64,000 nt of DNA, taken from positions 536,968 through 600,967 of the forward strand of contig ML213513.1 in NCBI GenBank assembly GCA_004369045.1, written 5' to 3'. The notes beneath the pieces are model-generated. The model made no database searches. It was not told where the DNA came from and worked only from the letters and a program-made list of their open reading frames with translations. Source of the stretch: Heliocybe sulcata. Its lineage: Eukaryota; Basidiomycota; Agaricomycetes; Gloeophyllales; Gloeophyllaceae. Made by a program: the position numbers and the translations under genes. The first letter of the stretch is position 1, and each line of letters starts with the position of its first letter. Shown here in pieces: positions 3,133-46,251 of the stretch.

Positions 3133-5002
3133 ATGGCTCTGACTGACGGCAAACTTTGGTGTCTGCTAATCGATCATGATAGGAAACCACTTGGCTATCC
3201 GTTCAAGGTGCCACTGGCTGCCGGGTTTGATGTGTCAGACTTGCGGCAGATGGCTGCAGAAATGAGAGCAGAAATAACTGGGTCAACACCGGGCGCGATC
3301 GCCCTGAACATCGTTGTGCGGCAGTGGCCAAGAGATACTTATGTCAAGGACGAATTCCTCCAAGAGGAAGTCACCAAGGCTTTCTCTGACAAGATAACCA
3401 TAATACTGGAGTCGTGGCAGGTGTTGGGAGACCTACAGCTCTCAGTGACTGATATATTGCTCGTGGAACTTCCCCCTCCTCCAGGTTAGTATCCATCTTC
3501 TATTGACGGTAAAGGCCAGTGCAGTGAATTGTCGTTGCAGCTGGATCAGGGAGTAAGCGCAAGCATGATTCACACAACCGACCAGAATCTATGGCGCTGA
3601 AGCGCCTGAAGACAGACATCGCAATGAAACCCTCTTCGCTTACTGCTCCCTCGGAGTTCCAAAAGATTGTAGGAGAAGGGCATGCTATCTCTTGCAATCG
3701 TCCCTTCGACTGCCATACCCTGCCTCTCGTACTCCTTCACGAAGCTTTCACGATTTTCAAAGACAGGTGCAGAGAGGACCCTTCGGAGCAAGCACTTTCA
3801 TGTCTCAATCAACTCAGCGTGGTGGGATGCGCGTGGTTTGAAACTCAGGTTGAAAGGAGGTCGGAGATTCAGGCCGTGCTTAAGGAGTGCATGGATCTTT
3901 CGCTGCCCGAAAGCAAGGTTCCGGGCACTGATTATGGGACCGACGGAAACCTTGACGTCGTCGTGATGCCTGCCGCCATTCGGGATTGCAAGAACGAGTC
4001 GGGACCTGCACTCAACGAAGCCATCCTATATTACGCGAACTTTCTCCAGAAGGCATTCGATCACCCTCTTCGCTTTCGTAATTTCCGCACTTGTTTCCCG
4101 AGTATCCTCATAGTGGACATGGGTGCGTTTTGTACCTCTATCATATGCACGGCATGTTACCATGTTATACAGGTTCGTATATGGGCTTTTATGGAGCCGC
4201 ATGGGACGGGCGGTGCGTGAAGGTCGAACCGCTCACACCTCTTTTCGACCTGTCCACCCATTGGAAGGAGCGGAAAGCGAGATATGCGATGGCAGCTAGT
4301 CTCGATGCGCTCGTGGCTGCCATCAGCAACATCACAGCGCATTACCGGTCCATCGTCACCGACGCAACAGAGAATCCACAGTCATCGGAAGCTGATCCTC
4401 GCGTCGAGAAGGCTCGCGGATATCCGTTCCTGACATCCTACAACGATGGTGAGCGAGAGATAACGTTCACGTACAAGGCGCGAGTCTACGACACGAAGCT
4501 CTTCTTCTATGCTACTCTGGACGGGCCTGACGCTGGCGACTGTCTCGTAAAATTTACGCCTCAGTATTCGGAAGGCGCGCACAGCTATCTCGCATCCCGC
4601 GGATTAGCGCCGATGCTCCGGCGATGCGTTCAAATCTCTGCAGACTGGGTCGCGGTCATCATGGACATATCTCCATACAAGGTGCTCTGCGATATGGATC
4701 TTTCGGAGGCGGACAAGGAGAAGATCCGGCACAAAGTGAAGAGTGCCTTGGATACACTACACCAAGGAGGCTTCGTCCATGGGGACGTCCGAGACACCAA
4801 TCTTCTCGTCGACGTTCAGTCGCTTGAATCTGAGGACGTGGCGATCCACTTGATCGACTTCGACTGGGCCGGACGTATCGGAGAGGCCAAGTACCCGCTT
4901 GGAATCAACAGGACAAGTGTGAAGCGCCCAGCCGGTGTCGAGGGCGGTGCGCTCATCGCAGAGAGTCATGACATTGGCATGTTGTCTTATCTCTTCGAAT
5001 GA
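3133..5002 (+). CDS. Crinkler-type protein: ubiquitin-like header, PD-(D/E)xK nuclease-like domain and kinase
   Basis: Exons 3133-3484, 3541-4122 and 4173-5002 join in phase to 587 residues. Residues 1-117 (LWCLLIDHDRKPLG and following) resemble the Crinkler N-terminal header. A basic patch (GSKRKHD, LKRLK) after it could be a nuclear signal. The middle region carries GTDGNLDVVVM then RDCKNESG at about 265, the DxK arrangement of restriction-endonuclease-like folds, followed by FPSILIVDMGSYMGFYGAAW. The C-terminal part is a kinase with VHGDVRDTNLL (HGD near 514-516) and LIDFDWAG (DFD near 540). This domain order is known from fungal and oomycete CRN proteins of the REase-kinase class, thought to act in nuclei as effectors or in conflict between organisms. 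Which role applies here cannot be told. The gene looks whole. Confidence 0.75.
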
Positions 5003-5606
5003 CTGCAAGTTCCATTGGCACTAGTGGCGCGTCTTTCCCAAAATCGATCAAGTGTTTTCTTTTCGCTGCAATGTCAGTGGCATGTATTCACGCGGCGATG
5101 CCTATATCCTGTGTTTCGTCGACATTCCTCTTTAGGCATCAGAAAAGGGACGGCCAACGATGCGGACCCACCATCGGCCAGGCCAGTGATAGACCCGACG
5201 GGGTACAGCTTTTCATCAATCAGTCCGCAACCGCAGTCTCTCGTGTCCTTACTTAGCTTCACCCAATGGCCGTAAAACAATACAATAGGAATCATGCAAA
5301 CGTACTGTACACATAATGTACAGTCACTGCTCTAGACGTGTCCGATGCAAAGGAGGAACAGAAGCCCTAGTGCAGACGCGACGAAGGAATACTTTACTAT
5401 ATGGGTCATAAAATATTAAGTCGTAATCCGATCCTACAAACAGACAGTCAACAGGCAAAGGTAGACAGACAGGGGATACGGAGCATGTACAGGGTAAAAA
5501 ATATCTGAGCCAGAAATCGTCAGGACCACAAGTAAGGATGCAGCGGACGAGCGAAATACTCACCAGACCCCATCTATGTCTACTCACAAAGACGATCCGA
5601 TCCCCT
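5003..5606. other. convergent 3' flanks
   Basis: This lies between two convergent genes. Only short frames on both strands are seen, with no repeat or RNA gene. Confidence 0.5.
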
Positions 5607-14510: not shown

Positions 14511-14767
14511 TCAGGCCGTGCAGGGATCGCATCCTTTCAGCTCCACTTCGATTACGGGATCCTGATGTTAGATGCGAAACCGGATCCGGACGAAGCTCGA
14601 TCTCACCTGAGGGAGCAGGTTCCCTCGCTGCTACACGGGTGTACTTGAACTAACTCAACACTATCAGAAGTGTTCCACGATACAGGAACATCTAGACTCA
14701 CTGCGGGTTTGGCGTGGACGACGCCGAAGAGGACAGCAGCAATCGCAATAAGGCTGGTGAAGCGCAT
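14511..14767 (-). CDS. micro-peptide 1: secreted peptide with C-terminal Cys pair
   Basis: Three tiny exons, 14767-14702 (66 nt), 14630-14607 (24 nt) and 14561-14511 (51 nt), join in phase to 46 residues. Exon 1 codes for exactly 22 residues, a textbook signal peptide (MRFTSLIAIAAVLFGVVHA, then KPA). Exon 2 is a short pro-segment (QRGNLLPQ) and exon 3 ends in GCDPCTA. Donors are GTGAGT and GTGAGA. The second acceptor has a CTAAC branch site. A TATAAAC lies at 14826-14820, about 53 nt upstream of the ATG. The exon layout matches the peptide genes at 22.2, 23.8 and 24.9 kb, so I treat them as one family. Only two Cys are present. No known family was recognised. Confidence 0.6.
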
Positions 14768-16197
14768 GGTGAAGAGTGTCTGGTCTTTGCGGGATGGCGT
14801 TGTCCTGAGACGAGACCGGGTTTATATCCTATTATTTCAAGGCACGCAAGAGATGACTGATAGTGACATGGCTCACCTATATAGGTGCTAAAAACAGACG
14901 AGTGAGCAGGTCTCTGACAGTTGCGGAGAGACATATGCCCCGGCATGTCAAGGAACCTGTGGTGGTAGGCTTGCTAGGACCTGACCGTGGCTATATTGCT
15001 CTGCGTCTGCGTGCCTCTCTATGACCAGTCGAGTTCAGTGTAGACGACAACATGACCACATAGTCTGAACGCTCCCGCAGAGCAATCATTATTATCTGCG
15101 AGGATCTTCTACCGGAGGTTCGCGATATCTCCTGAGGCCTGAGGTGCTGAACTCGATATCGTTGCTGTACCCGAGAAATGGCTTGCGAAACTTCGCATCA
15201 CACACGGCTGGCAGACGGTGGTGTCTCCGATGAGCTCGGCGCTTGTGCAGCACACCGAACAACCTCTGCAGCTCGGCATGAGAACGATAAGACACGGGCT
15301 GCCATGGTTTAGTGCGATTCACGGGCATTCTTGCTCCCCAATTAACGTCAGGGGGTGGTGGTACAGTCTGGTGCCGCCATTGCCGTCTGGCAGCTGTGGC
15401 ACTGGAGCTCGCGCTCGATGTCAACCGTTTGGACTTTCGCATCGTTATTAGTCCTAACAGAGTCACCGCGTGGACATGCCATTGTTCATATCATCGTAAG
15501 TTCCAGTAACAAATCGACAGCTTACTTTGCAAGTCGTGCCGAGCTGCTTCCCGAACAGAGCAGGCCCTCAGGGCAATAGACGATGCTCGCGTACTACCTT
15601 GCGGAGATAGGCACAAGCCACGAGACCTGCCGCGTTGCGTACCGGATGTGCCTAGTACTGGGCACGTAGGGTGGTTACTCGATGTAAGTCGCGGCCTATT
15701 GCGTGTGCGGGAGTCAGGCCTCCTATCGTTCGTCCCCGTCAAGGTTAGTTGACTAGTTATTACGGTCCTCGTTGATGGGTATCTGTCTAGACTTCACGGC
15801 ATGATCAGGAAGGCCGCCCAGCAAGTGTAGAACAAGACTGCAACTCACAGCCATGAACATGTCAAGCCTCGATGCAGACTATACACTGCAGTCTGCAGTA
15901 TTAAACTGTTCTGTATCGGCAGGCCCACACATAGTACGTGCGTATATATTCCACCACGATAGATGTCAGGAGCTCCCCGTAAAGGCTGCCAGAAGGAATA
16001 TGTATTTATGTCCGTCCAGGACTCCTGGCCAGGATTCGCGAGAGGCGGCGTCGATCTGGTCGTGGGAATGATGAGCTAAGGCAGGAATGGGACGGCCGTG
16101 ATTGGACCCCAGGTTGCTGCCGGAACCCGAATTCACGCGACAAGGACCTCACTCATCCCTTTCCCGCCTCCGCCGTCGTTCTCTCGCTCGTTCCCCA
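14768..16197. other. gene-poor stretch, 1.4 kb
   Basis: No supported gene. A palindromic CCTGAGGCCTGAGG lies at 15131-15144, the reverse of the motif seen at 8.1, 19.8 and 22.5 kb. A minus-strand frame near 15283 is Cys-rich but lacks a signal exon. The last part is the SDHB promoter. Confidence 0.4.
14820..14826 (-). promoter_or_regulatory. TATA box of micro-peptide 1
   Basis: TATAAAC reading toward the micro-peptide 1 start, about 53 nt from the ATG. This spacing resembles the TATA element of the peptide gene at 24.9 kb. Confidence 0.4.
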
Positions 16198-17234
16198 ATG
16201 CAGTCTCTAGCCAGGTCAGCGCTGCGCCCGGCCTTGAGGGCACGCTCTTTTGCCACGTCCGCTGCCAGGGCGCAGGCGGCGGCGGTGGAGAAGCAGCCTC
16301 TCATGAAGGAGTTCAAGATCTACCGCTGGGTACGTGGAATGTAGAGCATGTTTGTGGGACAGGAGGTGACCCAGGGGTACTTGATGTAGAACCCAGATGA
16401 GCCAGAGAAGAAGCCGACATTGCAGTCTTACACTATCGACCTAAACCAGTGCGGTCCTATGGTGGGTAATATTACTGTCTGTCGGAGAATTTGTCTCAAG
16501 CCTTTCCCCAGATCCTCGACGCTCTCATCAAGATCAAGAACGAGGTCGATCCAACACTGACTTTCCGCCGTTCTTGCAGAGAGGGTATCTGTGGCTCCTG
16601 CGCCATGAACATCGACGGACAGAACACTCTCGCCTGTCTCTGCCGAATCGACCGCAATGCAGGCAAGAACAGCAAGATCTACCCCCTCCCCCACATGTAC
16701 ATCGTCAAGGACCTCGTCCCTGACCTTACGCTCTTCTACAAGCAGTACAAGTCCATTGAGCCGTACTTGAAGAACGACAACCCGCCTGAGAAGGGCGAGT
16801 TCCTTCAGAGCCAGGAGGACCGCAGAAAGCTTGACGGCATGTACGAGTGCATTCTGTGTGCGTGCTGCTCGACGAGTTGCCCGAGTTATTGGTGGAACCA
16901 GGATGAGTACCTTGGTCCGGCTACGTTGATGGCTGCGTACCGGTGGATAGCAGACTCTCGGGTATGTCGGGTCTTCAACATTCATCTATCTGTAGCAATG
17001 CTAACTTCACTGTCTGTCAGGATGCCTACGCTGCAGAGCGTAAGGAGCATCTCCAGAACGAGCTGAGCATGTACCGTTGCCATACCATCTTCAACTGTAC
17101 GTCTCCTACTTTGTTGATCCCAGGACCCCTTTACTCAGACATTATACTGCTTATTAGGCGCACGAACGTGCCCTAAGGGTCTTAACCCGGCCGCCGCCAT
17201 TGCCAAGATCAAGCTGGAGCTCGCTGCTGACTAG
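16198..17234 (+). CDS. SDH2: succinate dehydrogenase iron-sulfur subunit, mitochondrial
   Basis: This is complex II subunit B, which passes electrons from the FAD subunit to ubiquinone in the inner mitochondrial membrane. Exons 16198-16329, 16390-16461, 16512-16961, 17021-17096 and 17158-17234 give 268 residues. The Arg-rich N-terminus ([18 protein letters not shown]) is a mitochondrial presequence. The [2Fe-2S] site is CREGICGSC with a later LAC. The [4Fe-4S] site is [12 protein letters not shown]. The [3Fe-4S] site is built across the last intron, with CHTIFNC and [10 protein letters not shown]. Length and ligands are all as expected. The odd feature is only that exon 5 begins inside the cluster-ligand region. 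Confidence 0.96.
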
Positions 17235-18052
17235 ATCACTCGAGATAGTTCACAGGGAACGGGATCACGGCGATGTGCAGTGTATGTACAGGTTCGGGAC
17301 TGTACATGGTGTAGGTTGTGCGTTCACAGGTATATATGCGTTTCTCCGCGCAGCGTTCCTGAGTTGGAATTGCTGTATCGCTGTGTTCGTCCAATGGACA
17401 AGCTGCATCTTGAGCTTGCATTGCGAGAGACGGACGATGGGATGCGGTATGCGACTATGATGGTGGTTGTCAGCAATGCCGGTACATGTGAGTATCCTAT
17501 GAATGTATTCGGAGGCCACATTTGCAGTGCGGCTGCCCTGCACACCAGGACGGTAGGAGTGCGAGTGGTTCGTTTCTCTGGTACGTAGGTCCCTGGGTCA
17601 CGTCGTGGCGATACACACTGATGTTGCTATGTATGCGGATGTGGTTGCGGAGTGCTTTCCGTTGACCTTGGCATTTCGCGGTATTCTTGTGCTTTGGCGC
17701 TGTGGCAGCGCTCAATCGCCGGACGATCTGATATAGACGCTGGGTGGCGCTTGCCATTCGCATGATCTTGACAAGCGCCCATTGACATGAGCATTCGGCT
17801 GCGGTTTGCGGTGTCTGCGCGCTGGGCGGCCAAGCAGATATGGCAGGTAGAGTCATAATAGAGCATAGCCCTGCTATTGGAGTGCTCACTGCCACTGCTT
17901 GGCTGGTATTGCATTGCAAGCGCCGCATTGCCACGCGTTTGGAAGAGTCAGAGCGGAGCTCGTCCACACGAGCCGCCCTTTATAAACACACTTTCCAGAG
18001 CTTTACCGTTGTGCGAGGCCCGCCTGTCTGCGCCGTCTAGTCCGCGAGCGCT
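17235..18052. other. intergenic with BCS1-like promoter
   Basis: No supported gene in about 820 nt. The frames on both strands here are long but have no recognisable domain. A TATAAA is at 17981-17986. Confidence 0.45.
17981..17986 (+). promoter_or_regulatory. TATA box of the BCS1-like gene
   Basis: TATAAA about 67 nt upstream of the ATG at 18053, at a usual fungal distance for a TATA element of a short-leader gene. Confidence 0.45.
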
Positions 18053-19630
18053 ATGAGCGTCGTGTCTAACTCAACAGTCGCTTCGACCTCTTCGTTCATA
18101 CCAGATCTGTCATCTTTGAATTACCTATCCATCTCATATTTCGCTCAGTATGCCTTCATAGCCCTAGGCGCCCTTCTTTATCCCCTCCAGCAGAACTTTC
18201 AAATAATCACAGACCGCATCAACTCGTTCTTCTTCATCACCGCGGCGTTCCGCGAAAATGACGCCGCGTACATCTGGGTGATGCACTGGCTGTCCAAGCA
18301 GCCGGTCCTGCAGAATGCACGCAATGTTGAGGTGACCACTGGCGGGTTCATTGGAAGCGGCGGCCTCGCTTCGTTCAGGACCAACGACGACCCCGGGCCA
18401 TCGACGAAAGACAAATGGCACAGGTTGGCATATGTGCCGTGCCTCTCTAGACCCATAACGTTCTGGTACCGCGGTCGGTGGATTTACGCAGTTCGGGTAA
18501 ACGGAGAGAAGACGGGGTTCTGGGGAGAGACTGGGTTGCTCCTCAGTATCCTCACCTTTGACAACTCGGTCCTTGCGTCCCTGCTTCAAGAGGCCAAAGA
18601 CGCTTACATTGCCTACCAGGATCTGCAGATGTCCGTCTACGCGTCTGACCCTATGGACCGCTGGCGGCAGGTGGCGGCCTGTTCCAAGCGCCCACTGCAG
18701 TCGATCATTCTTGACCCGGGTGTGAAAGAGGATCTGCTGAAAGACGCGCGGGAGTTCTTGCGCAGCCGCGAATGGTACCGGAGGAGGGGTATACCCTACC
18801 GTCGGGGCTACTTGCTGTATGGTCCGCCTGGTACGGGAAAGACGAGTGTCATACAGAGTCTTGCGGGGGAGTTGGGTTTGGATGTGTATATTGTGACGCT
18901 GAGCCGGAGAGGGATGGACGATGCAGGCTTGGCCCAGCTCATATCGGACCTCCCTCCAAAGTGCGTCGCTATCATGGAAGACATTGATGCCGCGCTGGTC
19001 CATAACATTAACCGGAAGAAGTCAACTGGAGAAAAGGACGGTAGCGATCAGGCAGAGGATGAATCGCCTGTGCCGAGGCAGTCGCAGAGAGGGGAGTATG
19101 AGAGACCTTCTGGGGTCACGCTAAGTGGGTTGCTTAATGCAATAGACGGCGTGGGAGCTCAGGAAGGGCGGCTGTTATTCGCTACCACGAACAAATACGA
19201 TGCGTTGGACACAGCGCTGCGACGACCTGGCAGGATGGACAAGCATGTGCGGTTCAAATTAACAAGCCGCTATCAGGCGAAGGAGCTCTTCTGCAGGTTC
19301 TACGAGCCGGCCGAGCTTCCAGACACGGAGAAGAAGGGAGAGACACCTGTGGTTCTGGTAGAACAGGACGTCAACGGGCCAGGGGAGAAGTACCGCGCGG
19401 TAGACCCAGATGATGCTATCCCCCATGTTGCCGCCGATCTGGAAGTTTTGGCATCGCGGTTTGCAGAAGCGATACCGGATAGGAAGCTCTCTATGGCCAG
19501 CCTTCAAGGGTATCTGATGGGGTACAAGACTAGTCCTCAGGATGCGGTCGAGCAAGCTGCAAGTTGGGCTGAGCGGGAAGGCAGGCCAGACGAGGATGGT
19601 GGGAACATGAGAGAAGGGCAAGAAGGGTAG
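18053..19630 (+). CDS. BCS1-like AAA ATPase
   Basis: An intronless reading frame of 525 residues. Residues about 28-55 (YFAQYAFIALGALLYPLQ) form the single N-terminal membrane helix seen in BCS1. A BCS1 N-domain follows (LSKQP, then WYRRRGIPYRRGYLLYGPPG). The Walker A is GPPGTGKTS at about 257. Walker B is VAIMEDIDAA near 305, and the sensor/arginine region is FATTNKYDALD then RRPGRMD. Classical BCS1 inserts the Rieske protein into complex III. Agaricomycetes carry many divergent BCS1-like paralogs of unknown role. This one has a long acidic insert after Walker B and is probably such a paralog rather than the mitochondrial assembly factor. The lack of introns beside intron-rich neighbours is notable. 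Confidence 0.88.
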   Translation: MSVVSNSTVASTSSFIPDLSSLNYLSISYFAQYAFIALGALLYPLQQNFQIITDRINSFFFITAAFRENDAAYIWVMHWLSKQPVLQNARNVEVTTGGFIGSGGLASFRTNDDPGPSTKDKWHRLAYVPCLSRPITFWYRGRWIYAVRVNGEKTGFWGETGLLLSILTFDNSVLASLLQEAKDAYIAYQDLQMSVYASDPMDRWRQVAACSKRPLQSIILDPGVKEDLLKDAREFLRSREWYRRRGIPYRRGYLLYGPPGTGKTSVIQSLAGELGLDVYIVTLSRRGMDDAGLAQLISDLPPKCVAIMEDIDAALVHNINRKKSTGEKDGSDQAEDESPVPRQSQRGEYERPSGVTLSGLLNAIDGVGAQEGRLLFATTNKYDALDTALRRPGRMDKHVRFKLTSRYQAKELFCRFYEPAELPDTEKKGETPVVLVEQDVNGPGEKYRAVDPDDAIPHVAADLEVLASRFAEAIPDRKLSMASLQGYLMGYKTSPQDAVEQAASWAEREGRPDEDGGNMREGQEG

Positions 19631-20772
19631 GCAACTGTATGAGTTATTCGTTAAGGAATTCTTGTTTGGGTAGACATCCCTGCAATTGAGGTGGTGTTAG
19701 AGATGCAAACGTCTACAGATACCGGTCAGTGAGCGGGACGCAGCTGAATCAAGGACTAAACAAAGCATCAGCCTTCGCTGGCCCTCGGGATCAGGCCTCA
19801 GGCCTCAGGTCCAGTGGCCGTCTACACTACCCTGTTCCCTGTATGCTTGTTATCAGGACCCAGGTTGGCAAATGGCTGAGAGCGCTCGCTAGCGTACGTA
19901 GGCACGGAACGATAACTAGATCTTGAGCCGGACGATGCCGAACTACCTTCGTCTCGGGGCGTCGACTAAGGACTTCGTGGCCCAGTCGGTTCAGCTTTTG
20001 CACACTCACTTAGTCTGTTTCAAGAACTCTGAAGACCTTACTGGAGAATGCAGACGCATCAGATATTCAATATTCAGTCCTGGGGTGGCCGTTGTCCTGG
20101 GGATCATGCGGGCGCATACATCTGGCTACGGCTCTTTGCACCGGCACCTTTAGGTTGCGTTTCTTGATAGAGGCTCTTGTGGATAAACCTTACCTTGCAG
20201 TACGAGTTTGACTGAGGGGTCCGCGAGCAGGGACAACGGAGCGGAAAGCGCTATCGACGAGCACTGAAAAGGCACTGGCATATGCTCGACTTCGGAGGAA
20301 CACAGATTCGCCTCTTAGTGCACGTATATCCGGCTAGTCCCCTCCGCTGAGTGTCTCTGGGTTTGCATGCTCATCGGACCATCCATGTCTCGCTGGTCCC
20401 TGCTGAGTTCCTATCTTTACGTCTTGCTTAATGTGCCGCCGCCTGTGTACTTGCAAGCATGGTCGCGGCTAGCGGCTACATGCCTTTCCAGACGGTGCCA
20501 ACCTTTCCCTGGTGCGCTTGCTACCTGAACCCCATTCCACTGGCTCACATGATCGGCCTCGTTCCAGTTCACAACTTGGAAGTCTTGGATTGTGAAGCAT
20601 ATACTGGTCCGTTCCTTACAAGTCCTACAATGCTTACGGACTGCTGCCATTATTCTAGGGCTGAATCCAAGTCTAGACCACAATTGGCGGGTGCAAGAGC
20701 AGCTTCAGTCATGTCGGCTCTCATCATTCATCCGGTCGTCGTAGTTCCCCGCAGCATCTCATATCCACGACC
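19631..20772. other. gene-poor stretch, 1.1 kb
   Basis: No supported gene. A run of the motif, TCAGGCCTCAGGCCTCAGG, lies at 19791-19809. A possible hydrophobic start (MSRWSLLSSYLYVLL) near 20387 on the plus strand lacks a downstream partner exon. Confidence 0.4.
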
Positions 20773-21056
20773 TCAGGGACCGATGCACTTGGGCAGCCAA
20801 CAGCCGTCCGTGCCAGCGGTAGTAGAGAGCACTGCATTGGGTGTTAGCATCGGAACTCTTGACTTGGATCTTCACCGCAATATCTGGGCGGCTGAGCCAG
20901 AAGCCAGGGAGGGGGACGCCTTACGATCACGTCCCTCCTTCGGCTACAGATACAGTTCGCTCGACCAGTGAAGGCTTGTCTGCATCTCACCACGGGATTT
21001 GCGATTGCAACAGCGATGACGGAGCCAAGGACGAGGATTGCAGCGAAGGCACGCCT
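20773..21056 (-). pseudogene. micro-peptide family relic with lost start codon
   Basis: The segment 21056-20991 is exactly 66 nt, the family's first-exon length, and reads RAFAAILVLGSVIAVAIANP after its first codon. That first codon is AGG where the family has ATG, and the phase-0 donor GTGAGA follows. A second exon (20943-20876, PKEGRDRK and on) and a third (20831-20773) follow. The third holds a frame ending DGCWLPKCIGP and a stop, like the HCIG end of micro-peptide 5. However, the phase between exons 2 and 3 does not match that frame. I read it as a decayed paralog. A non-ATG start cannot be excluded. Confidence 0.5.
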
Positions 21057-22092
21057 ATCTTGGTTTAACTTATGGGTCTCTAGGCTGCATGGTACTAAAT
21101 GACTGCCATATATATGGCGGGTTCTGGTCTCCTCTTTGTTTTGAGCCGCATTCGACGGGAGAAGTTTCAGATTCTACATATCTACGGCACCACCTGCTGC
21201 GATTTCCTTGGGAGTCTATCACGATAGGACCCCTCTAGGCGTCCTTGTACCGTGGCCGGATGCTCCAGTTATCTCCTCTCTGGCCTATGCATGGATACCA
21301 AGGACTTGCTCCTATAAAGTATGGCGACAAGGCATGTTGGCGTTCCCTTCGTCGGACTGGGCTTGTTGATTCCATTCGAGGGTAACATTCACCTTGCGTC
21401 ATAGCTTCAACCTTCACTGCCTGATTATCGCATACGTGTTATCCATAACATGACAAGAATCGGACGAACTTGTGGGACACAGTTACCAATCGTCGCATGA
21501 AGCAAAGAAAGCTACCACCTGGCGGAGAAATGAATCGCCGTCCAGCTTTTATGATTCTTCCCGGGAGCTGTACACGCAGCGCTCTTGTCTATGGTTACAT
21601 TTTGAAGCCGGTTGCAGGACACCGAGAAGATGCTGTAACTCGAGGACGGTACGGCCCAGCTTGACCGTTTCTGCTGACTATCTATGGAACGACCCTGATT
21701 CTAAGCCTACTTGCACTAAGGATCTTCTTACTGCAAGCAATGACGCGCGATGCGACTTGGTCCGTACAGACCGTGGACTCGCAGTATTGTCATATATAAA
21801 ATGGTGGTTGTCCACGCCGTATACGCTCTCATCCTTGTATGCCCTTTATTTCGGCATAATGTTTGACAGACATTCTGACGCCGAGAACACAATTCAGGGT
21901 CACAAATTTATTCTGGGGTTCAACTAAGCCCGTTGTTTACAAACGTCTCCAGTTACTCCGGGTCTTGCACAGCGCTGCAACGCCAGTAATTCACTACTAT
22001 TCGTATGCCTGAGGTCAGTGTGGAGACCTGAGGAAGTATGGCCGCTACTCACGTCTGTCTTCCAAGACCGCTAGCGGGACTGCAGCATTGAC
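21057..22092. other. gene-poor stretch, 1.0 kb
   Basis: No supported gene. A short frame near 21800 (plus strand) begins MVVVHAVYALILVCPLF, which looks like a signal peptide, but no coding continuation was found. Confidence 0.4.
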
Positions 22093-22287
22093 TTATTCCT
22101 CAAGATAGCATCCGGGGCATACGCTGCACGGGTATGATGTGCATTGAGCTTCCTCGCTTGGCTGGAACAAGTCATAGTGAGTCTATGATACGGAACGCGA
22201 GTGACCCGGTATCGAACTCACAGTAGGAGTGGCCATAACGGCAGCTATATAGCAAGCAAGCATGAGAACAACGCTGAAGGCACGCAT
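22093..22287 (-). CDS. micro-peptide 3: secreted four-Cys peptide
   Basis: Two exons, 22287-22222 (66 nt) and 22161-22093 (69 nt), give 44 residues. Exon 1 again codes for exactly 22 residues (MRAFSVVLMLACYIAAVMA, then TPT) and ends in phase 0 before GTGAGT. The 60-nt intron has a CTATGAC branch region and a TTCCAG acceptor. Exon 2 starts PSEEAQ and gives Cys at spacing C-x4-C-x2-C-x2-C (TSYP, SV, PG between them), ending YLEE. Unlike its relatives it has no separate pro-segment exon. The mature part after signal cleavage would be about 24 residues. The function is unknown. An antimicrobial, signalling or effector role is only a guess. Confidence 0.6.
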
Positions 22288-23749
22288 GACTGAAATCTGT
22301 GGGTTGCAGTTCGTTCTGAGTCTCGTAGGCTCCATCTTATTCCCTTTTATCTAATTCGAAGGGCTCACTTGGACCGTTGTCCTGGCACTTCCGGAATAAT
22401 GATGCATCTCCAGCCTGTGCATATTATGGCATCGTGCCTTTCTCTATGTTCGCTTCCAAGGGTCAGGCCTCAGGTTCCTTGCTTATCCTCGTCTCGAGCG
22501 CTTGGAGTACCTGCCAGTTAGATCTTTGATCAACGGTTACTTATGCTTCTCAGCCGCTGTTCGGCTTGCAAATTGTTGCTGATGCGGCTCGTATATCAGC
22601 CTGCGCAATACCGTCCGCTCCATCATTCGCCAATTACGTTCTTAATAGTTATGTGGAGCTTTCCTCAACTATTGCGGTGGCAAAGAGGCTCGGAAAGAGT
22701 CTGAGCTATTCGCGATCGATCCAGATGGTCTCCCTCCAGCCGCTATTTGCATGTCCCCCTGGGACTGACCAAATAAGTTCACGTTTTGTCCTCGTTACCT
22801 TGCTGGCTTTTACACTGGACTTATTCGATATTCACATATGATGGCAGCGAATTCCCGAACAAGACGGGGTGCCACTGTGTGAATATGCCTTGTTTATGGT
22901 GGATGAGAGACCTTGGGACCTGGGCCTGAAGTCTGATTTCATCCTTCCATAGCTCCGGAATCAGGTAAGTCTATTACGACTGTGACTGCTGAGTACTCCT
23001 AAACTCCCTTAGCACAATTTTCAACGAGGCTATTCGGCAGCACCAAGGTGACAAGGACGACGGTCCGTGCATCTAGAAAGTCCCGATGTATCAAGACATC
23101 TGTGGCCCTCAACCTCGATGTCCTAGAGTTCCCTGTACCTTCAGGTGGATAGTAGACGCACCCCAGTCACAAAAGATCTCAGTCGTCGTTCAGCGGAATA
23201 TGTCGGTTAGCCAGGCACGTTAACACGCGCTTTCTGGAACTTACTCCCGCTGTCCAGGGAAACTGCCAAATATCCTGGGCGTTATCTGGCTCTCTATCCG
23301 CATCTGATGATGCATTGGCGTACCCACAATCTTCCTCCTTATCACGCCACACTCCCTGTCGTCAGCGGTCCTGCGAGATATCCGCCCCTGGCAAAACTTG
23401 ACAGCTGCGAGACCCGTTTACGGGGACTAGGCATGCGCGACCAGTTTCAGTCGCGCTGGAAGAGAACAAGTGAAGCCGGTATTGCGAAGGCAGTAGTCTG
23501 CGTCAATAGGGAGCATCTAGGGACCGAGAGTAACTCTTTCATATCAAGAGCGGGACCTGGCACGCGGAAAGGCACCTAGGAACCGATATAACAGCAGCCG
23601 CTGGTTTGACATGGGTCGAGTGATGTGCAGCTCACTGGCGCTGAACTTCTGCTCGTAACGCTGAGATCCAGAAGCGTGTAAAGGAGAGATCAGCTGCTCC
23701 TTGGTCAGTCCAATCTCATAACTTTCCAACTACACCACAAACCTCAGCG
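22288..23749. other. gene-poor stretch including the 5' part of duplication unit 1
   Basis: No other gene is seen. TCAGGCCTCAGG lies at 22463-22474. From about 23100 onward the sequence matches the region starting near 24395, the first half of the tandem duplication described below. Confidence 0.45.
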
Positions 23750-24036
23750 ATGCGCGTCCTCAACGTCGTCCTCGCTCTTGCCTCGGTTATTGTCGGGGTT
23801 CTTGCAATGCCTAAGGTATGGCCTCTTAGACACTAGGCATGCAGGCTGTAACTTACGCTTACGGATAGCCAGACGTGAATGTCCTTGCTGCCCGGGAAGC
23901 CGCTAATCCCAGTAGGTCATTCTCCACGTCCAAGTCATGCATCATTCTAACTCCTGACCAAGTTGTCTGCGGGATGTGTGGATGCGAACCGCCCTTTTCC
24001 TGCGTTTTGAGCGAAGACGAAGACACGAAAGTGTGA
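23750..24036 (+). CDS. micro-peptide 4: secreted four-Cys peptide
   Basis: Exons 23750-23815 (66 nt), 23869-23911 and 23963-24036 join in phase to 60 residues. Exon 1 encodes 22 residues of signal peptide (MRVLNVVLALASVIVGVLA, then MPK). Exon 2 is a pro-segment PDVNVLAAREAANP. Exon 3 carries CGMCGCEPPFSC (C-x2-C-x-C-x5-C) and an acidic tail SEDEDTKV. The second intron has an ideal CTAAC branch site. It is the closest relative of micro-peptide 5, 1.16 kb downstream, and both lie in a tandem segmental duplication. The signal and AAREAA pro-segment are better conserved than the Cys exon, and its acidic tail is absent from copy 5. Confidence 0.68.
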
Positions 24037-24245
24037 CCTGATAGGAAAGAGAATCACTGCCGTGCTATCTAAGACATGAGTGACGAGTGTTGGAAAAGCA
24101 CGGCGATTCTTGTACTGGAGACATCCTATAGGCGACCCACCATGCGTACGAGTAACTCTCCACTAACGAAATCAATATTTGATCCTAGAGAACCATCAGC
24201 CTTTAAACCATGCGCATTTGTCTACGAGTAAGACGTCCTGACCTC

Positions 24246-24392
24246 TTAATGCCTCCTTACTAGACATACCGCGGCGCCGCCGGGTTATTTCACCTCCAAC
24301 GTAACTGTCAGTTCTACTGTCTCTTTCCTTCTCCTTGCCGATCTACCGCACGAGTTTCCCAAGAAACTGGTCGCTCGAATCGGAATTTTAGG
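24246..24392 (-). pseudogene. relic of the methyltransferase 3' end
   Basis: About 145 nt align with the end of the intact gene at 25440-25585. Shared parts include the region before the stop (tgcctccttactagacat against tcctccttgctaggcat) and the segment coding for the SDQFF area. The rest of the gene is absent upstream because unit 2 begins there. It marks that the duplicated unit carried peptide gene plus methyltransferase tail. Confidence 0.65.
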
Positions 24393-24832
24393 TCGTAAAC
24401 GTCCAGTTGGATACACCCCACTCACGAAACGCCACAAAAGATCGCAGTCGCTGTTGAGTGGCATATATCGTATCAGGCAGGCACGCTAACACGCTTTATG
24501 GAACTTCCCCACACTGTCCAGAGAAACTGCCAAATATCCTGAGCGATAACAGGCATCCAATGATGCGCTCTAGTGCACCCGCGGTCCACCTCTTGTAGGT
24601 ATGTGGGCGCGGAATTCAGGTTCAGTCGCACTCCAAGAGAGTAAGTCAACTTGGTACTGTGAAGATGGTGGTCTGCATCAGTAGACAAGCATCTGTGAAC
24701 AGCGGACGGAATGCACGATGTGGAATGGTCCTTAGGTGATAGGTACATGATCGCAGTTGTTGCTTGTTCCGCACAGATAGGGCCATGTGCCACTCACCAA
24801 CCCTGAATCAGAAACGCAGAGACCCAGAAGCG

Positions 24833-24839
24833 TATAAAG
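24833..24839 (+). promoter_or_regulatory. TATA box of micro-peptide 5
   Basis: TATAAAG about 67 nt upstream of the ATG at 24906. The matching place in unit 1 reads GTGTAAAG, a weaker version, which might lower expression of copy 4. Confidence 0.45.
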
Positions 24840-24905
24840 AAGGGATCGGTAGCTCACTGGTCATTACAATCTCAAAACTCACCAACCATACCCCAAATCT
24901 CAGCA

Positions 24906-25178
24906 ATGCGCGTCGTGAACGTCTTCCTCGTTTTCGCGTCGGTTATGGTCGGGATTATTGCGACCCCTATGGTACGTTTCATGCAGTGGGATTCATCAGC
25001 ACGTACTTACTTCCATGGGCAGCCGGAAGGGAACATTCTAGCTGCACGCGAAGCCGCTGCTGAAGCTGATCCCAGTAGGTCATCTTCTCGTACGCCCCGG
25101 TGTATGCTGGTCCTGACTCTTTTAAAAGTGTACTGCGGGCCGTGTGGATGCGACCCGCCTCCCCACTGCATCGGTTGA
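24906..25178 (+). CDS. micro-peptide 5: secreted four-Cys peptide
   Basis: Exons 24906-24971 (66 nt), 25023-25074 and 25129-25178 give 55 residues. Exon 1 is the 22-residue signal exon (MRVVNVFLVFASVMVGIIA, then TPM). Exon 2 reads PEGNILAAREAAAEADP, close to copy 4. Exon 3 reads MYCGPCGCDPPPHCIG and stops, with C-x2-C-x-C-x5-C spacing identical to copy 4. The intron phases (0 and 1) are also identical. The GN(I/L)L motif of exon 2 recurs in micro-peptide 1. The mature peptide may be only about 15-20 residues and Pro/Cys rich, recalling venom or antimicrobial mini-peptides in style only. Confidence 0.7.
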   Translation: MRVVNVFLVFASVMVGIIATPMVRFMQWDSSARTYFHGQPEGNILAAREAAAEADPSRSSSRTPRCMLVLTLLKVYCGPCGCDPPPHCIG

Positions 25179-29276: not shown

Positions 29277-31008
29277 ATGCTGCGACTCGTCGCTGCTCCA
29301 CGTCCTGTCCACAGTCTATGTCTGAAGAGGTTCCTCTCTGGCAATACGTCCTCTTCAAATCATGACGAGTATGTACACTTCTATGGCTACACCTCTGGCA
29401 GATGGATTCACGACGAGGCGAAGCAGCTGGCACTGCGCTACTGTCGATTCAATGTCGACGGGTTGAAGCATGCTGCTGCATCCGCCTGCAATGCGAGAAG
29501 TGTCACTCGCATGGTCAAATTGGCTGAAGGATCTTATAATAGAGTGTTCCTGATATCGCTCGATAACTCCAGAGAGATCATCGCTCGTATCAAGACCCCT
29601 CATGCGGGCCCGTCCCATCTAGTTACGGCTAGCGAGGTCGCGACAATGCAGTTCGTCCGTAAACTCGGGATACCTACGCCAGCCATCCTTGACTGGAGTT
29701 CGCAAGCTGGAGAGAATCCAGCAGGGGCGGAGTACATTATTATGGAAAAAGCTGCTGGCGTGGAACTGTCTACCGTGTGGTCAAAGCTGTCCGAAGCACA
29801 GCGGGACGGCTTCCTCGCGAGATGGGTGACATTGGAGAAGGCTCTCATGGCCCGTTTGTCGGGCGGATATGGGAGTCTCTACTACAAGGGTGATGTGGAC
29901 TCAAAGCAAACGCGAGATTTGTACGTGAATGGCGTCCTCGAGCCGGAGTTCGTCCTAGGTCCGAGTGTCGAAAGGCAGTTTTGGTCTGGAGAAAGGCTGG
30001 ATATGGATCTTGACCGTGGTCCATGTACGTATTCTGCACTTACATCCGGGTCATTCATCTGATTTCTCGTTGAAAGGGAAGAGTCCGCAGGCTTATTCTC
30101 TGGCGATTGCGAATAACGCCAAACAATGGCTGAACGATTTCGCTGTACGACCGGCGGAGTTCGGCATATTCGATCCTCCTGAGCGTGTCCAGCACCCTCA
30201 TTTACATCTCGCTCTGCTGGGCCAATTTGCTGCTGTGGCTCCTTTCCTCGTACCTGAAGACCAGCAGCTGATAAGGCCAATACTTTGGCCTGGGGATGTT
30301 CACACGAATAACGTCTTTGTCTCCGAGGGATGTCTCTCTGGGGAAGACATTAGTATAACGTCTGTGATAGACTGGCAACACCTTGCGGTACTCCCTCTTT
30401 ATCTTCAAGCAGCCGTCCCCGCGCTCTTCGAGTACTATGGTAGGAGACCGCTTCCTGCTGGAGACTCGGAGCAGCTGCTGTCTCTTCCCGAGGACTTCGA
30501 TACACTAGATGAAGAAGATCAGATTCAAGTGAGGGACGACATCGAGCAGTTCAACCGTTGCCTGATTTACAGAAGGGTCTGTGCTGGTCTCATTCCCGAG
30601 TACTATCGCGCCCTCGTCCTCCCGACCCACAGGCTGCGCTTCTTCCCAGTAAAATTTGCCAGTCATACATGGGACAATAAATTCATACCATTGCGTGACC
30701 TTCTGAGTCAGATCTATCAAAACTGGCGCGTAATATATCCTGGAGACGTGCCATGCCCTATCCATTTTACCGAGGAAGAAAGCCGAACATATCACCTGGA
30801 GGCTCTCGAGTGGCAGAATGAGGTGGATGCAAGAGCGTCACTTGATCGACTTATTGGGGTCTCAGATGAGGACGGGTGGGTAGCAAATGAAGAGTATGAG
30901 GAAGCTATCGCTCGCAACGCACGGGTGATGGAACTATACATCGAGAACGTGATGGAGGGCAAGTCGGCGGATGTTGTGAGGCGTACCTGGCCGTATCGGC
31001 CCAGCTGA
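29277..31008 (+). CDS. AIM9-like mitochondrial phosphotransferase (APH family), copy 1
   Basis: Exons 29277-30024 and 30077-31008 join in phase to 559 residues. The intron (GTACGT donor, TTGAAAG end) restores DRGPWKSPQAYSLA, the usual GPWxSP motif of fungal AIM9 relatives. The N-terminus is a mitochondrial presequence (MLRLVAAPRPVHSLCLKRF). The kinase-like fold shows LAEGSYNRVF, EIIARIKTP, YIIMEKAAGVEL, a catalytic loop WPGDVHTNNVFV and a metal-binding SVIDWQH. Yeast Aim9 is a mitochondrial protein of unknown substrate. It is a tandem duplicate of the next gene. Confidence 0.85.
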
Positions 31009-31906
31009 GGCTATTCATGTAGCTCAATGCAGTGCGATGTCCCTGTGACGGAGATCCTATTCGTAGATACTGACATGACATCTGGACAAGCTGAACATCT
31101 GCAACTGCCCCACCAAGGTACTCTGAGAAGCTTGGTGTATTGGTATATGAAGCTTTGAAGACCGAATAAGCTCCGCCCGAGGATGCAACCTTGTTCTCCA
31201 GCGGCGCACTGCCAGTGACAAAGCGGATGGCATCAGGTAGAACAGATATCTGGGGTGTAATGCAATTAGTACTTAGGCAGTTGAACGTGGAACGTTGAGC
31301 ACTCGAGCACCCTTTGAAGTCTCCGTTCGGCGCTTGCCATCGGGAAGGTCCCGGTCCGGTTGCCGGGCCGTTGGTGACGGGGGTACCAAAATTAAAACCG
31401 AGTTCTGGCAATAGTCACCATGCCCAGCGATGTACCTCTACTAATCCAGTAAATCAATGGTGAGCTAGGTGAGCTACTTAATTTGGACCCTTAAGTCGTA
31501 CACTAAGTTGAACGAATTTCAGTCGCAAGTCTCCCTTGACCCGCGCTACTGACAGTAACAGCTCTGTTCGTCATAGCCGTGTATAGATACTTATAGTACG
31601 TCCGTCGCACACCGTGATACGTGGACCATCGTCTTCTGTGGTCTATCATGGACTCTTCATCCTTTAAATTGACATGTCGACCTTTGAAGCTGAAGCTTGA
31701 AGCTTAGCAGACAATCAGCTTCTGGATCTGGCCAGGGCATCGCGGGCCCGGAACCGCCGTGCTGGTTGAGGCTCCTAGAAGGCGGCGTTTAGGACATCTC
31801 GTGCTGAAGGCGGTCTGCCAGTCTGACGGAGAAGTACTTCGACTTTTGTTTCTGCGAGGAATTAGTGCAATTGACTTCCCTCGATTAGACGTTGGCCAAA
31901 ATTACC
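31009..31906. other. intergenic with a methyltransferase relic
   Basis: Holds the relic at 31388-31440 and otherwise no gene. The last 30 nt form the leader of AIM9-like copy 2. Confidence 0.45.
31388..31440 (-). pseudogene. relic of the methyltransferase first exon
   Basis: About 50 nt match the start region of the intact methyltransferase at 26590-26642, including the aligned ATG (cat at 31419-31421), aaccgag and gcaatagtcaccatg. The remainder of the gene is gone. It supports a common ancestral order of methyltransferase beside an AIM9-like gene. Confidence 0.55.
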
Positions 31907-33649
31907 ATGCTGCGAATTCTTGCCCGTTCACATACTGTCCAAAATCTATCCCGGAGAAAATCTTTCTGCACTTTCAGTACATCTACGGCTTCCAATGATG
32001 ACGAGCAGTTCTATCGCTATACCTCTGGCAGGTGGATACATGACGAGCCAAAGCAGCTGGCGCTGCGCTACTGCCGATTCAATGTGGACGGGTTGAAGCA
32101 TGCTGCTGCATCCGCCTGCAATGCGAAGGGCGTTACGCGTATGGTGAAGCTGGCCGAGGGATCATATAACAAGGTCTTTCTGCTATGTCTCGATAACTCT
32201 AAGGAAGTCATAGCTCGTATCAAGACCCCTCACGCGGGCCCGCCTCATCTCGTTACTGCGAGCGAGGTTGCGACGATGCATTTCGCTCGCAAACTCGGCA
32301 TACCTATGCCAGATATTCTCGATTGGAGCTCCAAGGCCGAACAGAACCCCGTGGAAGCTGAGTACATTATAATGGAGAAAGCTACTGGTGTGGAGCTGTC
32401 TACCGTGTGGTTCCAGCTGTCCGAAGCACAGAGAAACCGCTTCGTAGCGAAATGGATTACATTGGAGAAGGCTCTTATGGCCCGTCTGTCGGGCGGATAT
32501 GGGAGTCTCTACTACAGGAGTGACGTGAACTCGAATCAATCGCGAGACCTGTACGTGAATGACGTCCGCGAGCATGAGTTTGTCCTGGGTCCAAGTGTTG
32601 AAAGACAATTTTGGACCGGAGAAAGGCTGGACATGGAACTTGATCGTGGTCCATGTGCGCATAATTCACACTTATCTCCGGGTCATTCGTCTAATTTCTC
32701 ATTGAAAGGGGATACTCCGCAGGCTTACTCTCTGGCGATTGCGAATAACGCCAAACAGTGGCTGAACAATTTCGCTGTACGACCGGCGGAGTTCGGCATA
32801 TTCGATCCTCCCGAGCATGCTCAACATCCTCATTTACATCTCGCTCTGCTGGACCAATTCGCCGCTGTGGCTCCTTTCCTCGTACCTGAAGACCAAGGGC
32901 TGACAAGGCCAACACTTTGGCCTCGGGATGTCCACGCGAGTAATGTCTTTGTCTCCGAGGGATGCCTTTCCGGCGAAGCTATCAGTATAACGTCCGTGAT
33001 AGACTGGCAACACCTTTCGGTACTCCCTCTTTACCTCCAAGCAACTGTCCCCGTACTCTTCAGGTACCATGGGACGAGGCAGCTGCCTGCTGGAGACTCG
33101 GAGCAGCTGCTGTCTCTTCCCGAGGACCTCGATGCATTAGATGAAGAAGATCGGATCCAAGTGAGGGACGATATCGAGCAGTTCAACCGTTGCCTGATGT
33201 ACAGAAGGCTCTGTGCTAGTCTGAATCCCGAGTACTATCGCGCCCTCGCACTCCCCACTCGCACACTGCGCTGTTTCCCAGTGAAATTTGCCAGCAATAC
33301 ATGGGACGACAAATTCATACCACTGCGTGACATTCTAGGTCGCATCTATCACAACTGGGACGCGATATGCGCTACAGATGTACCATGCCCCATTCATTTT
33401 ACCGAGGAGCAAAGCCGAACATATCCTTTGGAGGGTATTGAGTGGCAGAGCGTGGTGGATGCAAGAGCCGAACTCGATCGAGCTGTTGGCGTCTACAGTC
33501 AGGATGGGTGGGTACCAAATGAAGAGTATGAGGGAGCTGTCGCTCGCAACGCACAGCTGATGGAAATGTACATCGAGGACGTGATGGAGGGGGAGTCGGC
33601 GGATGTTGTGAGGCGTACCTGGCCGTATCGGCCCAGCTCACGCAGCTAA
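31907..33649 (+). CDS. AIM9-like mitochondrial phosphotransferase (APH family), copy 2
   Basis: Exons 31907-32654 and 32709-33649 give 562 residues and match copy 1 over the full length. The presequence (MLRILARSHTVQNLSRRK) is Arg-rich. Motifs are LAEGSYNKVF, EVIARIKTP, YIIMEKATGVEL, WPRDVHASNVFV and SVIDWQH. The intron is 54 nt, divisible by three and free of stops, so an unspliced message would still be open and add 18 residues. Splicing gives DRGPWDTPQAYSLA, which fits the family better. The first ATG at 31907 is in the right place against copy 1. Confidence 0.87.
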   Translation: MLRILARSHTVQNLSRRKSFCTFSTSTASNDDEQFYRYTSGRWIHDEPKQLALRYCRFNVDGLKHAAASACNAKGVTRMVKLAEGSYNKVFLLCLDNSKEVIARIKTPHAGPPHLVTASEVATMHFARKLGIPMPDILDWSSKAEQNPVEAEYIIMEKATGVELSTVWFQLSEAQRNRFVAKWITLEKALMARLSGGYGSLYYRSDVNSNQSRDLYVNDVREHEFVLGPSVERQFWTGERLDMELDRGPCAHNSHLSPGHSSNFSLKGDTPQAYSLAIANNAKQWLNNFAVRPAEFGIFDPPEHAQHPHLHLALLDQFAAVAPFLVPEDQGLTRPTLWPRDVHASNVFVSEGCLSGEAISITSVIDWQHLSVLPLYLQATVPVLFRYHGTRQLPAGDSEQLLSLPEDLDALDEEDRIQVRDDIEQFNRCLMYRRLCASLNPEYYRALALPTRTLRCFPVKFASNTWDDKFIPLRDILGRIYHNWDAICATDVPCPIHFTEEQSRTYPLEGIEWQSVVDARAELDRAVGVYSQDGWVPNEEYEGAVARNAQLMEMYIEDVMEGESADVVRRTWPYRPSSRS

Positions 33650-43284: not shown

Positions 43285-44929
43285 TTCGGGGACGCCTGTG
43301 AGCAAAGAGACGCGAGAGAGCGGTTATACTTGGTATCGACAGCAAGCTAGAACATAAAGATAGCTCGAGAAGGAATGACAGCAGAACCAGTCTGGCTAGC
43401 GGGATCGATGTCGGGTGTCGGCGACAGCGACAGCGAGCACGGTGGTTATATACAAAGCGAGCGATGGTCAACGGCGGCGACAGCGACGGCGACGCAGAGA
43501 ATGACGGAGTCGAAATTAGGCACATTTTCTGTAACCACTGACGTTTATAGCAGCCAGGCTATTCTGGACGATCCCAGCGTACTTCGCCCCTGCCCGAGCA
43601 AAGCCGGGCTCTGATTGGCTGCGCCGGACGGACGACGATCCGGCGGCACAGGGGGGCCGCATGCTGTACACCACCGGCACCGACGCCTAGAATTAAAATC
43701 TTAATTATAAGCGGCATAATTAACGCTTCAGATGACGTAGAATCGCTAGGGTTTCACTTTGACAGGATCACGCTGTGGCAGAAAAGAGTGGCCAGAGCAT
43801 TCCAAGCTGGTATCAAGTGGTACCAGGCGATACGGTAATGTTTTCCAGTTTCCAGAGTTCGACGTTCAACAGCGCTCAGGAATCGCGGAATGGACGGCCG
43901 CTCGTCCACAGAGACATGGCAGCAAGAACGGAAGAACGTTGAGATTCAAGGAGATTCCGCCCGGCTGATAATGGCAATGGCATTACCGAGGTGAAAGAAT
44001 AATTGAAGTTTATCTGACACATCTTCTCGGTCTATCATTCAAAAGATTAAAAGACTGACTGACTACGGATGAATGAATTGATTGTAGGTAGACAACGATC
44101 ACAGCGAACATTGAGTCAAGTAAGCACACTCGGGGTAACTCTCGCCGGTTGTAGGAAGGACTTGCGAAGGATTGAGGAAGTTGGTCCTTCTGTCGTTGCC
44201 CTCTGCTCCATTTATCCATCATACGAACTGCCGGGCTCCGCTCAACATGTGCACCATTCCCGAAGCCCGTCTGCACCAAAGCCTGTCCACCGCAACGCCG
44301 CCAGCGACCGCAGCAACCGGTACCCCCCTGCTTTTGAGCAGACCACGCCACGCAAGGCCCCAGCCGGACAGAGGCTGAAATACGTGGACTGTGCTGGCGT
44401 GCTACATGTGGACAGGCGCGTCGGACGTGAACACACCCATTCCTTGACAGTATTTTGAGCTTCCAGATGTGGGTCAGAAATCCGAGGGCTGGCATCACTT
44501 CATGCACGTCAGCTTCAGTGTAACGGTCAAGGCCAACAACCTTGCCCAGCAGCGCAGGCATAGTGAGAACCCTTACAGAATAAAGCAAATTCACTGCCCT
44601 CGCCAAGCAATCTACTTGTAAGGACCCGCTCCTCGGGAGGTATCGCCAGGTTCAATTGGCAGGTAGGACGCTCGAACCTTGGAAGTTTAGGGAGACATGA
44701 ACCGTAAGAATCCCAAGCCGAATCAACGCCGTGGACATACCAGATTCGACGGAAGATGCGCACATCAGAGGCAACACTTAAACGCTCTCCAATCTTGATA
44801 GGAGATACGAAAGCTGGATCCTCCTCCGACTCGGGAGGCTATGCCCCCATCCTCGAGAAATCAAATGAATCCATTTCGGAGGGCAGGCATGCGGATATGT
44901 ACGTTGACTGCACCAGCCAGCGCGTTCGA
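43285..44929. other. gene-poor stretch, 1.6 kb
   Basis: Includes the 5' flank of the disordered protein and an AT-rich palindrome-like spot near 43692-43722. Minus-strand frames at 44460-44763 (YVHGVDSAWDSYGSC, DVHEVMPALGFLTHIW) look protein-like and might be extra 3' exons of the gene at 44930-45643, but phases could not be joined. Confidence 0.35.
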
Positions 44930-45643: not shown

Positions 45644-46251
45644 CCGGAAGGTTCAGTAACTCCTATAGACTCGTCGTATACCCCCACACAAACCCGGATA
45701 GCAAGAGTCTCTGCAGAGACGATCTACGGATAAGCGCGTATCGGAACGGCACAACACGTCAGTTAACGTGCAGACCACACGAAAAATGTTACGCACCTGA
45801 TAACAGACGGAGATCCTGGAACCCGTGGGCCTGTGACACCTGCCTAGAAGCTACTCCCCAAAGACTGAGACTTACCAACTTCCCCCTATTGTCCTAGAAC
45901 GAAGGCAAGGCCAGGAGCTCGAAGATTGGAAGACATGTGTCGACAGAGCAGATCAAGTATTAAACTGCAGTGCATGCAGATATCATTACGCATAAGGATA
46001 AGGAGTACTCTAGAGAGCGTCCGGCGCAGGAAGGATTAGGAGATTAGTGAGCGGCTGTGTGTGAGATGGTCGCGGTTGAGAGAAGGGGGTCAGCTGGGCA
46101 AGAAATACATCAGTCCTTAGTCAACGGCGTCATAGATGATAGAATATACATTACCATGACTTATGGCACAATATGATACAGTTTTGAGTATTGTACAACT
46201 CTGCTCTTCTGGCAGGCAAAATATCTCTTTCCCCTGCATGTCCCTCCTCTC
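45644..46251. other. intergenic, 608 nt
   Basis: No gene seen. It lies between two minus-strand genes. Confidence 0.4.

Follow-up and report, generated by a model that had tools for sequence, protein, structure and literature searches.

Tiny split genes in Heliocybe sulcata that probably encode a clustered family of secreted cysteine-containing peptides

Background

Genes for small secreted peptides are common in fungi. Hydrophobins have eight Cys in a set pattern within about 100 residues, and basidiomycete mating pheromones end in a C-terminal CaaX box and have no signal peptide. Exon-modular venom peptide genes, those of conotoxins for example, combine conserved signal and pro parts with a variable Cys part. 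Small secreted proteins (SSPs) are defined, in the relevant passage of PMC4649063, as secreted proteins of under 300 residues. The precursors called KEPs (Kex2-processed repeat proteins) carry three or more internal repeats and are cut at dibasic Kex2 sites, and the sections of PMC6339444 devoted to them report a Ste13 signature, basidiomycete KEPs included; the same sections mention a two-Cys peptide with a Ste13 signature from a basidiomycete yeast. Here we describe six copies of a very small split gene in Heliocybe sulcata. Five of them lie within a stretch of 64,000 nucleotides (hereafter the window) on contig C11 of a 31.6-Mb assembly, and the whole genome was searched with protein and DNA queries.

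Judging by their sequence, the copies probably form a clustered, tandemly duplicated small family of Heliocybe sulcata, built of signal, pro and Cys exons and coding for preproteins of 44-60 residues. The preproteins of all five intact copies have this length, which is within the size limit of SSPs. The best reading is a new orphan small-secreted-protein family, unusual in size and exon modularity and probably secreted. Orphan SSPs of Agaricomycetes, as far as PMC4649063 portrays them in the sections concerned, are alike in the signal-type start, the small size, the lack of a Pfam family above cut-off and the finding of relatives in one species only. The present copies differ from them in having 44-60 residues encoded by two or three exons and, in the three-exon copies, the signal, the pro-segment and the Cys on separate exons. 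With KEPs and alpha-type pheromone-like precursors, in the part of PMC6339444 that deals with them, the copies share a signal peptide and a possible endoprotease site, which in some copies is followed by X-Ala/X-Pro pairs that may correspond to the Ste13 signature; unlike KEPs, they have one peptide per precursor and a single Arg instead of KR or RR.

Three known classes were considered and rejected. By eye, the fully read peptides contain no repeats and the five peptides contain neither KR nor RR, which does not fit KEPs. No copy has more than four Cys after exon 1 and no Pfam match lies above the cut-off, which does not fit hydrophobins. A signal-type exon is found in all copies and Cys at position -4 in 0/5 intact copies, which does not fit mating pheromones. 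Conotoxin genes show the same arrangement of conserved signal and pro parts and a variable Cys part; the present family differs in numbering six found copies in all, and no sequence relation is claimed. In Pfam, nothing above cut-off was found with the five peptides (only DUF6223, Vps36-NZF-N and COA2 appeared, all sub-threshold). In PDB, searched with the 24.9-kb peptide only, there were three matches to unrelated large proteins (E 0.19-1.2), and the open-licence literature yielded no described family of this design. The preliminary description of this DNA, which had recognised no described family, agrees with these searches.

Recurrence of the signal exon

The intact genes of the window are named after their positions (14.5, 22.1, 23.8 and 24.9 kb). 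In 4/4 of them exon 1 is 66 nt long, encodes MR, a hydrophobic core and A19-x-P21-x22, and is followed by a phase-0 donor. The signal peptidase cut is predicted after A19 by the usual rule for residues -1 and -3; relative to it, residue -1 is A and residue -3 is V or I in the four window exons and in the sixth copy (L014), and all five have a hydrophobic core.

Both strands of the window were scanned for an ATG with 57-75 nt of open frame that includes a hydrophobic core and leads into a GTRNG donor. The scan gave four sites, all in the known genes and all of 66 nt with MR, A19 and P21, and no site beyond these four on either strand. Every gene with a 66-nt MR signal exon and a phase-0 donor that had been proposed earlier was recovered where it had been placed, and these genes are the sole scan sites of the window. 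In 150 dinucleotide-shuffled windows the 66-nt MR/MK form occurs with a mean of 0.0067 and a maximum of 1, a somewhat flattering ratio, as the scan criteria were fixed only after the genes had been seen. Two fairer controls were a loose form of the pattern and other stretches of the genome. The loose form (any length, any second residue) has a mean of 0.56 and a maximum of 3 in the same shuffled windows, and the scan of 97,303 bases in 11 other genome stretches gave two sites: the sixth family copy and an unlike 75-nt site. TATAAA, ATAAAA or TATATA stands 58-73 nt before the start in five of the six copies (a count made without a chance model); the 23.8-kb gene has upstream only GTAAAG, a pattern entry that was added after being seen.

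Downstream exons and the common Cys motif

The coordinates of all exons are listed in Table 1. In the 14.5-, 23.8- and 24.9-kb genes the introns measure 51-61 nt and the exon phases are 0 and then 1; the 22.1-kb gene has one intron of 60 nt. For exon 2 of the 14.5-kb gene the most likely start is 14649, which lies 6 nt farther upstream than first placed and keeps the frame, as in L014. CTNAY is found 9-27 nt before the 3' end of 10/11 introns (again without a chance model), the exception being intron 1 of the 20.8-kb copy.

Two short motifs recur in the downstream exons. The pro-segment retains [VL]AAR[EQ] in 4/5 intact copies, and exon 3 contains C-[D/E]-P-x(0-3)-C in 4/5 intact copies, spanning both subfamilies: GCDPCTA and VCDPGYPCTV in the 14.5-kb gene and L014, GCDPPPHC and GCEPPFSC in the 23.8- and 24.9-kb genes. 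The subfamilies share this motif at an exon 1 identity between them of just 27-30/66 nt. The anatomy of the genes, its recurrence, their duplication and the common motif are demonstrated. As a separate observation, Cys at position -3 ends three copies (14.5, CTA; L014, CTV; 24.9, CIG), and the 20.8-kb copy ends in CIGP.

Table 1. Exons of the six copies (window positions, except for L014)
Feature	Position	Strand	Description
14.5-kb gene exon 1	14702..14767	-	66 nt, MRFTSLIAIAAVLFGVVHAKPA; TATAAA 59 nt upstream
14.5-kb gene exon 2	14607..14649	-	43 nt, FKYTRVAAREPAPS; gttag acceptor as in L014 and its public model
14.5-kb gene exon 3	14511..14545	-	35 nt, VELKGCDPCTA, first codon split, stop
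20.8-kb copy exon-1 body	20991..21053	-	RAFAAILVLGSVIAVAIANPV, donor GTGAGA
20.8-kb copy probable exon 2	20925..20943	-	19 nt, phase 0 to 1, PKEGRD
20.8-kb copy probable exon 3	20773..20831	-	ends GTDGCWLPKCIGP then stop, two Cys
22.1-kb gene exon 1	22222..22287	-	66 nt, MRAFSVVLMLACYIAAVMATPT
22.1-kb gene last exon	22093..22161	-	69 nt, PSEEAQCTSYPCSVCPGCYLEE, stop; phase-0 start
23.8-kb gene exon 1	23750..23815	+	66 nt, signal peptide MRVLNVVLALASVIVGVLAMPK, donor GTATGG
23.8-kb gene exon 2	23869..23911	+	43 nt, pro-segment PDVNVLAAREAANP, phase-1 end
23.8-kb gene exon 3	23963..24036	+	74 nt, contains VCGMCGCEPPFSC, stop
24.9-kb gene exon 1	24906..24971	+	66 nt, MRVVNVFLVFASVMVGIIATPM; TATAAA 73 nt upstream
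24.9-kb gene exon 2	25023..25074	+	52 nt, PEGNILAAREAAAEADP; 9-nt in-frame difference from the 23.8-kb copy
24.9-kb gene exon 3	25129..25178	+	50 nt, YCGPCGCDPPPHCIG, stop
L014 copy exons	L014 4860-4925, 4978-5026, 5089-5129		sixth copy; gttag acceptor before exon 2

Duplications, the sixth copy and its public model

The 23.8- and 24.9-kb genes belong to a tandem duplication of about 1.2 kb, with 68% identity over query part 108-723. The genome search showed that the family extends beyond the window: the sixth copy, L014, lies about 300 kb away at C11:865.7-866.1 kb, and its alignment with the 14.5-kb gene covers 428 of 541 query bases at 83% identity. The exon lengths of these two differ by 6 and 6 nt and intron 2 by 1 nt, with the stop and the Cys aligned. 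Together with the anatomy, this copy gives good support to the initial proposal that the tiny spliced genes form a family encoding secreted Cys peptides. The genome searches score the best candidates only, and more diverged copies may exist. Another match, C1:689692 (E 0.11, 31% identity), was dropped, as the surrounding DNA (L015) has no corresponding signal exon.

A profile search with the five peptides gave, from 14 candidates, P0121 as the sole database protein at E <= 10. P0121, a hypothetical protein of Heliocybe sulcata (OE88DRAFT_1661122), has 87 residues and is letter for letter exon 1 of L014 joined to 4978-5175. By this identity the genome belongs to H. sulcata (Gloeophyllales) or to something extremely close. 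It agrees with our reading on exon 1, intron 1 and the gttag acceptor of exon 2; intron 2 is read through, and the end is outside the Cys frame. The public model of L014 4860-5175 may wrongly keep intron 2 and is a candidate mis-annotation. Neither the search with the 23.8-kb peptide nor the profile search gave a protein record for the window copies. This absence is weak evidence because the BCS1 protein of the window itself has no match above 50% identity among those listed from the same database. The protein search with the 23.8-kb peptide gave no candidate; like the profile search, it needs exact common words of five residues, so that distant relatives would escape both. Searches with protein pieces of the 20.8-kb copy and with the 22.1-kb peptide gave self matches only. 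Genome DNA searches with the 20.8- and 22.1-kb loci also gave self matches only.

In the preliminary description the family was called hidden. This holds in part: a single database relative was found, and through it L014 does have a public record, with another 3' structure. The further idea of a peptide gene nursery found no backing: tandem duplication and one damaged copy were observed, and birth from non-coding DNA was not seen.

The 20.8- and 22.1-kb copies

The 20.8-kb copy had been regarded as damaged, and its start codon is indeed missing: there is no ATG at the start, nor in frame across the 25 upstream codons examined. The remainder, however, is readable in the full three-exon layout with phases 0 and 1 and introns of 47 and 93 nt, and the missing start codon is the visible lesion in this assembly. 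It may reflect an assembly error or true decay; both fit. The exon-1 bodies of the 20.8- and 22.1-kb copies are identical at 36/63 bases, and 20,000 random placements reach 31 at most.

The pro exon had been considered absent from the 22.1-kb gene. The single intron is confirmed, but simple absence is not: exons 2 and 3 may have fused, which is likelier because the last exon begins in phase 0 with Pro, as does exon 2 of the 23.8-, 24.9- and 20.8-kb copies.

Coding evidence, splicing and alternative explanations

Comparison of the 23.8- and 24.9-kb genes shows 118/159 identical positions in exons and 49/102 in introns (Fisher P 2e-5), a contrast that comes mostly from intron 1 (P 3e-6; intron 2 alone gives P 0.051). 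The dN/dS ratio is 0.51 over 52 codons for this pair and 0.35 over 46 codons for the 14.5-kb gene and L014. Third codon positions hold 28/60 changes (P 0.022). Where exon lengths differ, they do so in steps of three (9 and 24 nt in one pair, 6 and 6 nt in the other), whereas the flanks and some introns show other gap lengths. Other results weigh against a conserved coding function. The 14.5-kb gene and L014 show no difference between exons (121/141 identical) and introns (94/113; P 0.60), exon 1 alone gives dN/dS of 0.71 and 0.99, and randomly re-placed substitutions yield amino-acid changes as few with P of 0.13 and 0.076, i.e., the constraint is weak. In addition, the exon borders were picked partly to keep the frame, so the length evidence is supportive, not independent; intron 1 is partly exempt from this bias because P0121 uses the same intron 1. 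The excess of synonymous changes between copies, to which the first description had tied its proposal, thus has the right direction but is weak, and the selection results together favour coding, short of proof. The weak amino-acid constraint, the copy without a start codon and P0121 as the only relative found in the protein database would also suit duplicated non-coding or decayed DNA with no functional genes, in which frames and splice-like sites are coincidental. We find this improbable, given that the 66-nt signal exon recurs four times against 0.0067 in shuffles, that the exons of the 23.8- and 24.9-kb genes are kept above their introns with length differences in frame, and that CDP/CEP..C is common to subfamilies with so little identity in exon 1.

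Intron 2 is likely, with fair confidence, to be spliced, as far as its sequence tells. In the four intact three-exon copies its donors are canonical, and CTAAC or CTGAC lies 16-27 nt ahead of its 3' end. If the genes were real and secreted and intron 2 were usually retained, the products would be longer, at about 72-87 residues, and the 14.5-kb gene and L014 would not make their C-terminal Cys design. Several facts speak for retention and against splicing. P0121 keeps intron 2 and is precisely this reading of L014. In the 23.8- and 24.9-kb genes intron 2 (51 and 54 nt) is a multiple of three, stopless and readable in frame, and its identity of 30/51 is closer to that of exons (P 0.051) than the 19/51 of intron 1. 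In the 14.5-kb gene and L014 it is identical at 54/61 positions, as high as the exons. Its acceptor is AAG in all four genes, a less usual acceptor. On the other hand, the 1-nt difference in intron 2 makes the read-through proteins of the 14.5-kb gene and L014 part after ...HLTS, whereas the spliced forms keep the frame, the stop and two Cys. In intron 2 of the 23.8- and 24.9-kb genes the donor and the branch-like CTRACTC stand out by eye as the longest conserved segments, and the Cys frame of the spliced 14.5-kb gene and L014 agrees with CDP/CEP..C of the other subfamily. Splicing is favoured because C-[D/E]-P-x(0-3)-C is found across both subfamilies and exon lengths differ in threes; usual retention is a distinct, if unlikely, alternative.

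Proposed processing and role

Here we infer that the genes are expressed and their products secreted, where these are cut, that they carry disulfides, and what role they may have. Signal peptidase would take off exon 1 by cutting after A19, and a protease would then cut behind the single Arg of AAR in the [V/L]-A-A-R-[E/Q] pro-segment. A dipeptidyl aminopeptidase of the Ste13 type could, in some copies, trim the following X-Ala/X-Pro pairs (EP-AP; QP-AP; EA-AA-EA-DP). The product would be the exon-3 peptide of roughly 12-25 residues with one or two disulfides, released outside the hypha; the spacing of the Cys points to small disulfide loops, one or two per peptide. After AAR there are two such pairs in the 14.5-kb gene, two in L014, four in the 24.9-kb gene and one in the 23.8-kb gene, and the 22.1-kb gene has no AAR (counts without a chance model). 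With the AAR cut made and the pairs removed, almost exactly the exon-3 peptide would remain for the 14.5-kb gene, L014 and the 24.9-kb gene; the fit is poorer for the 23.8-kb gene. This scheme has to contend with the monobasic nature of the proposed cut, the single X-Ala pair of the 23.8-kb gene and the lack of both AAR and CDP in the 22.1-kb gene. The role of the peptides is most likely signalling or antagonism toward competing microbes, by analogy, because of the peptide features and of what such peptides do elsewhere.

A bolder version, which we consider improbable, is that the genes are a new class of alpha-factor-like single-copy precursors in a basidiomycete. The signal, the Ste13-trimmed pro-segment and the disulfide peptide would then each be a processing unit with an exon of its own, and duplicates would diversify the peptide with the signal exon length and the phases fixed. 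If true, the class would be a lineage-specific repertoire of peptide signals or weapons misread by annotation. It is also doubtful that the products are secreted thiol or metal-binding peptides, in which CxxC and CGPCGC bind copper or zinc or have a redox role without disulfide closure. CxxC does occur in 4/5 intact peptides (CGMC, CGPC, CDPC, CPGC), L014 having C-x5-C. The constant between the subfamilies, however, is CDP/CEP..C, and no metal-binding profile lies above the cut-off, the Vps36 zinc-finger being sub-threshold (E 0.063, 23.8-kb peptide). To return to the main reading, the genes, if expressed, show that mushroom genomes can encode secreted peptides of 12-25 residues in a form that escapes gene finders or is spliced wrongly by them. 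A 66-nt signal exon with A-x-P-x and a phase-0 donor makes a search rule for other Agaricomycetes.

Other features of the window

Between the peptide genes, 16491-17066 (+) holds a frame with Fer2_3 and Fer4_17, by eye a succinate dehydrogenase iron-sulfur subunit, and 18053-19630 (+) holds an intronless gene for a BCS1-like AAA ATPase of 525 residues, for which none of the 120 relatives listed out of 5132 exceeds 50% identity. By eye, 29277-31008 and 31892-33649 (+) are two duplicate copies of one protein of no assigned family. The latter is a single 585-codon frame with no Pfam match at E 0.001, and the former is spread over two overlapping frames. Further on, at 44001-56000, the AT skew is positive in each 2-kb step (0.075-0.154), and these 12 kb contain four listed open frames of at least 150 codons.

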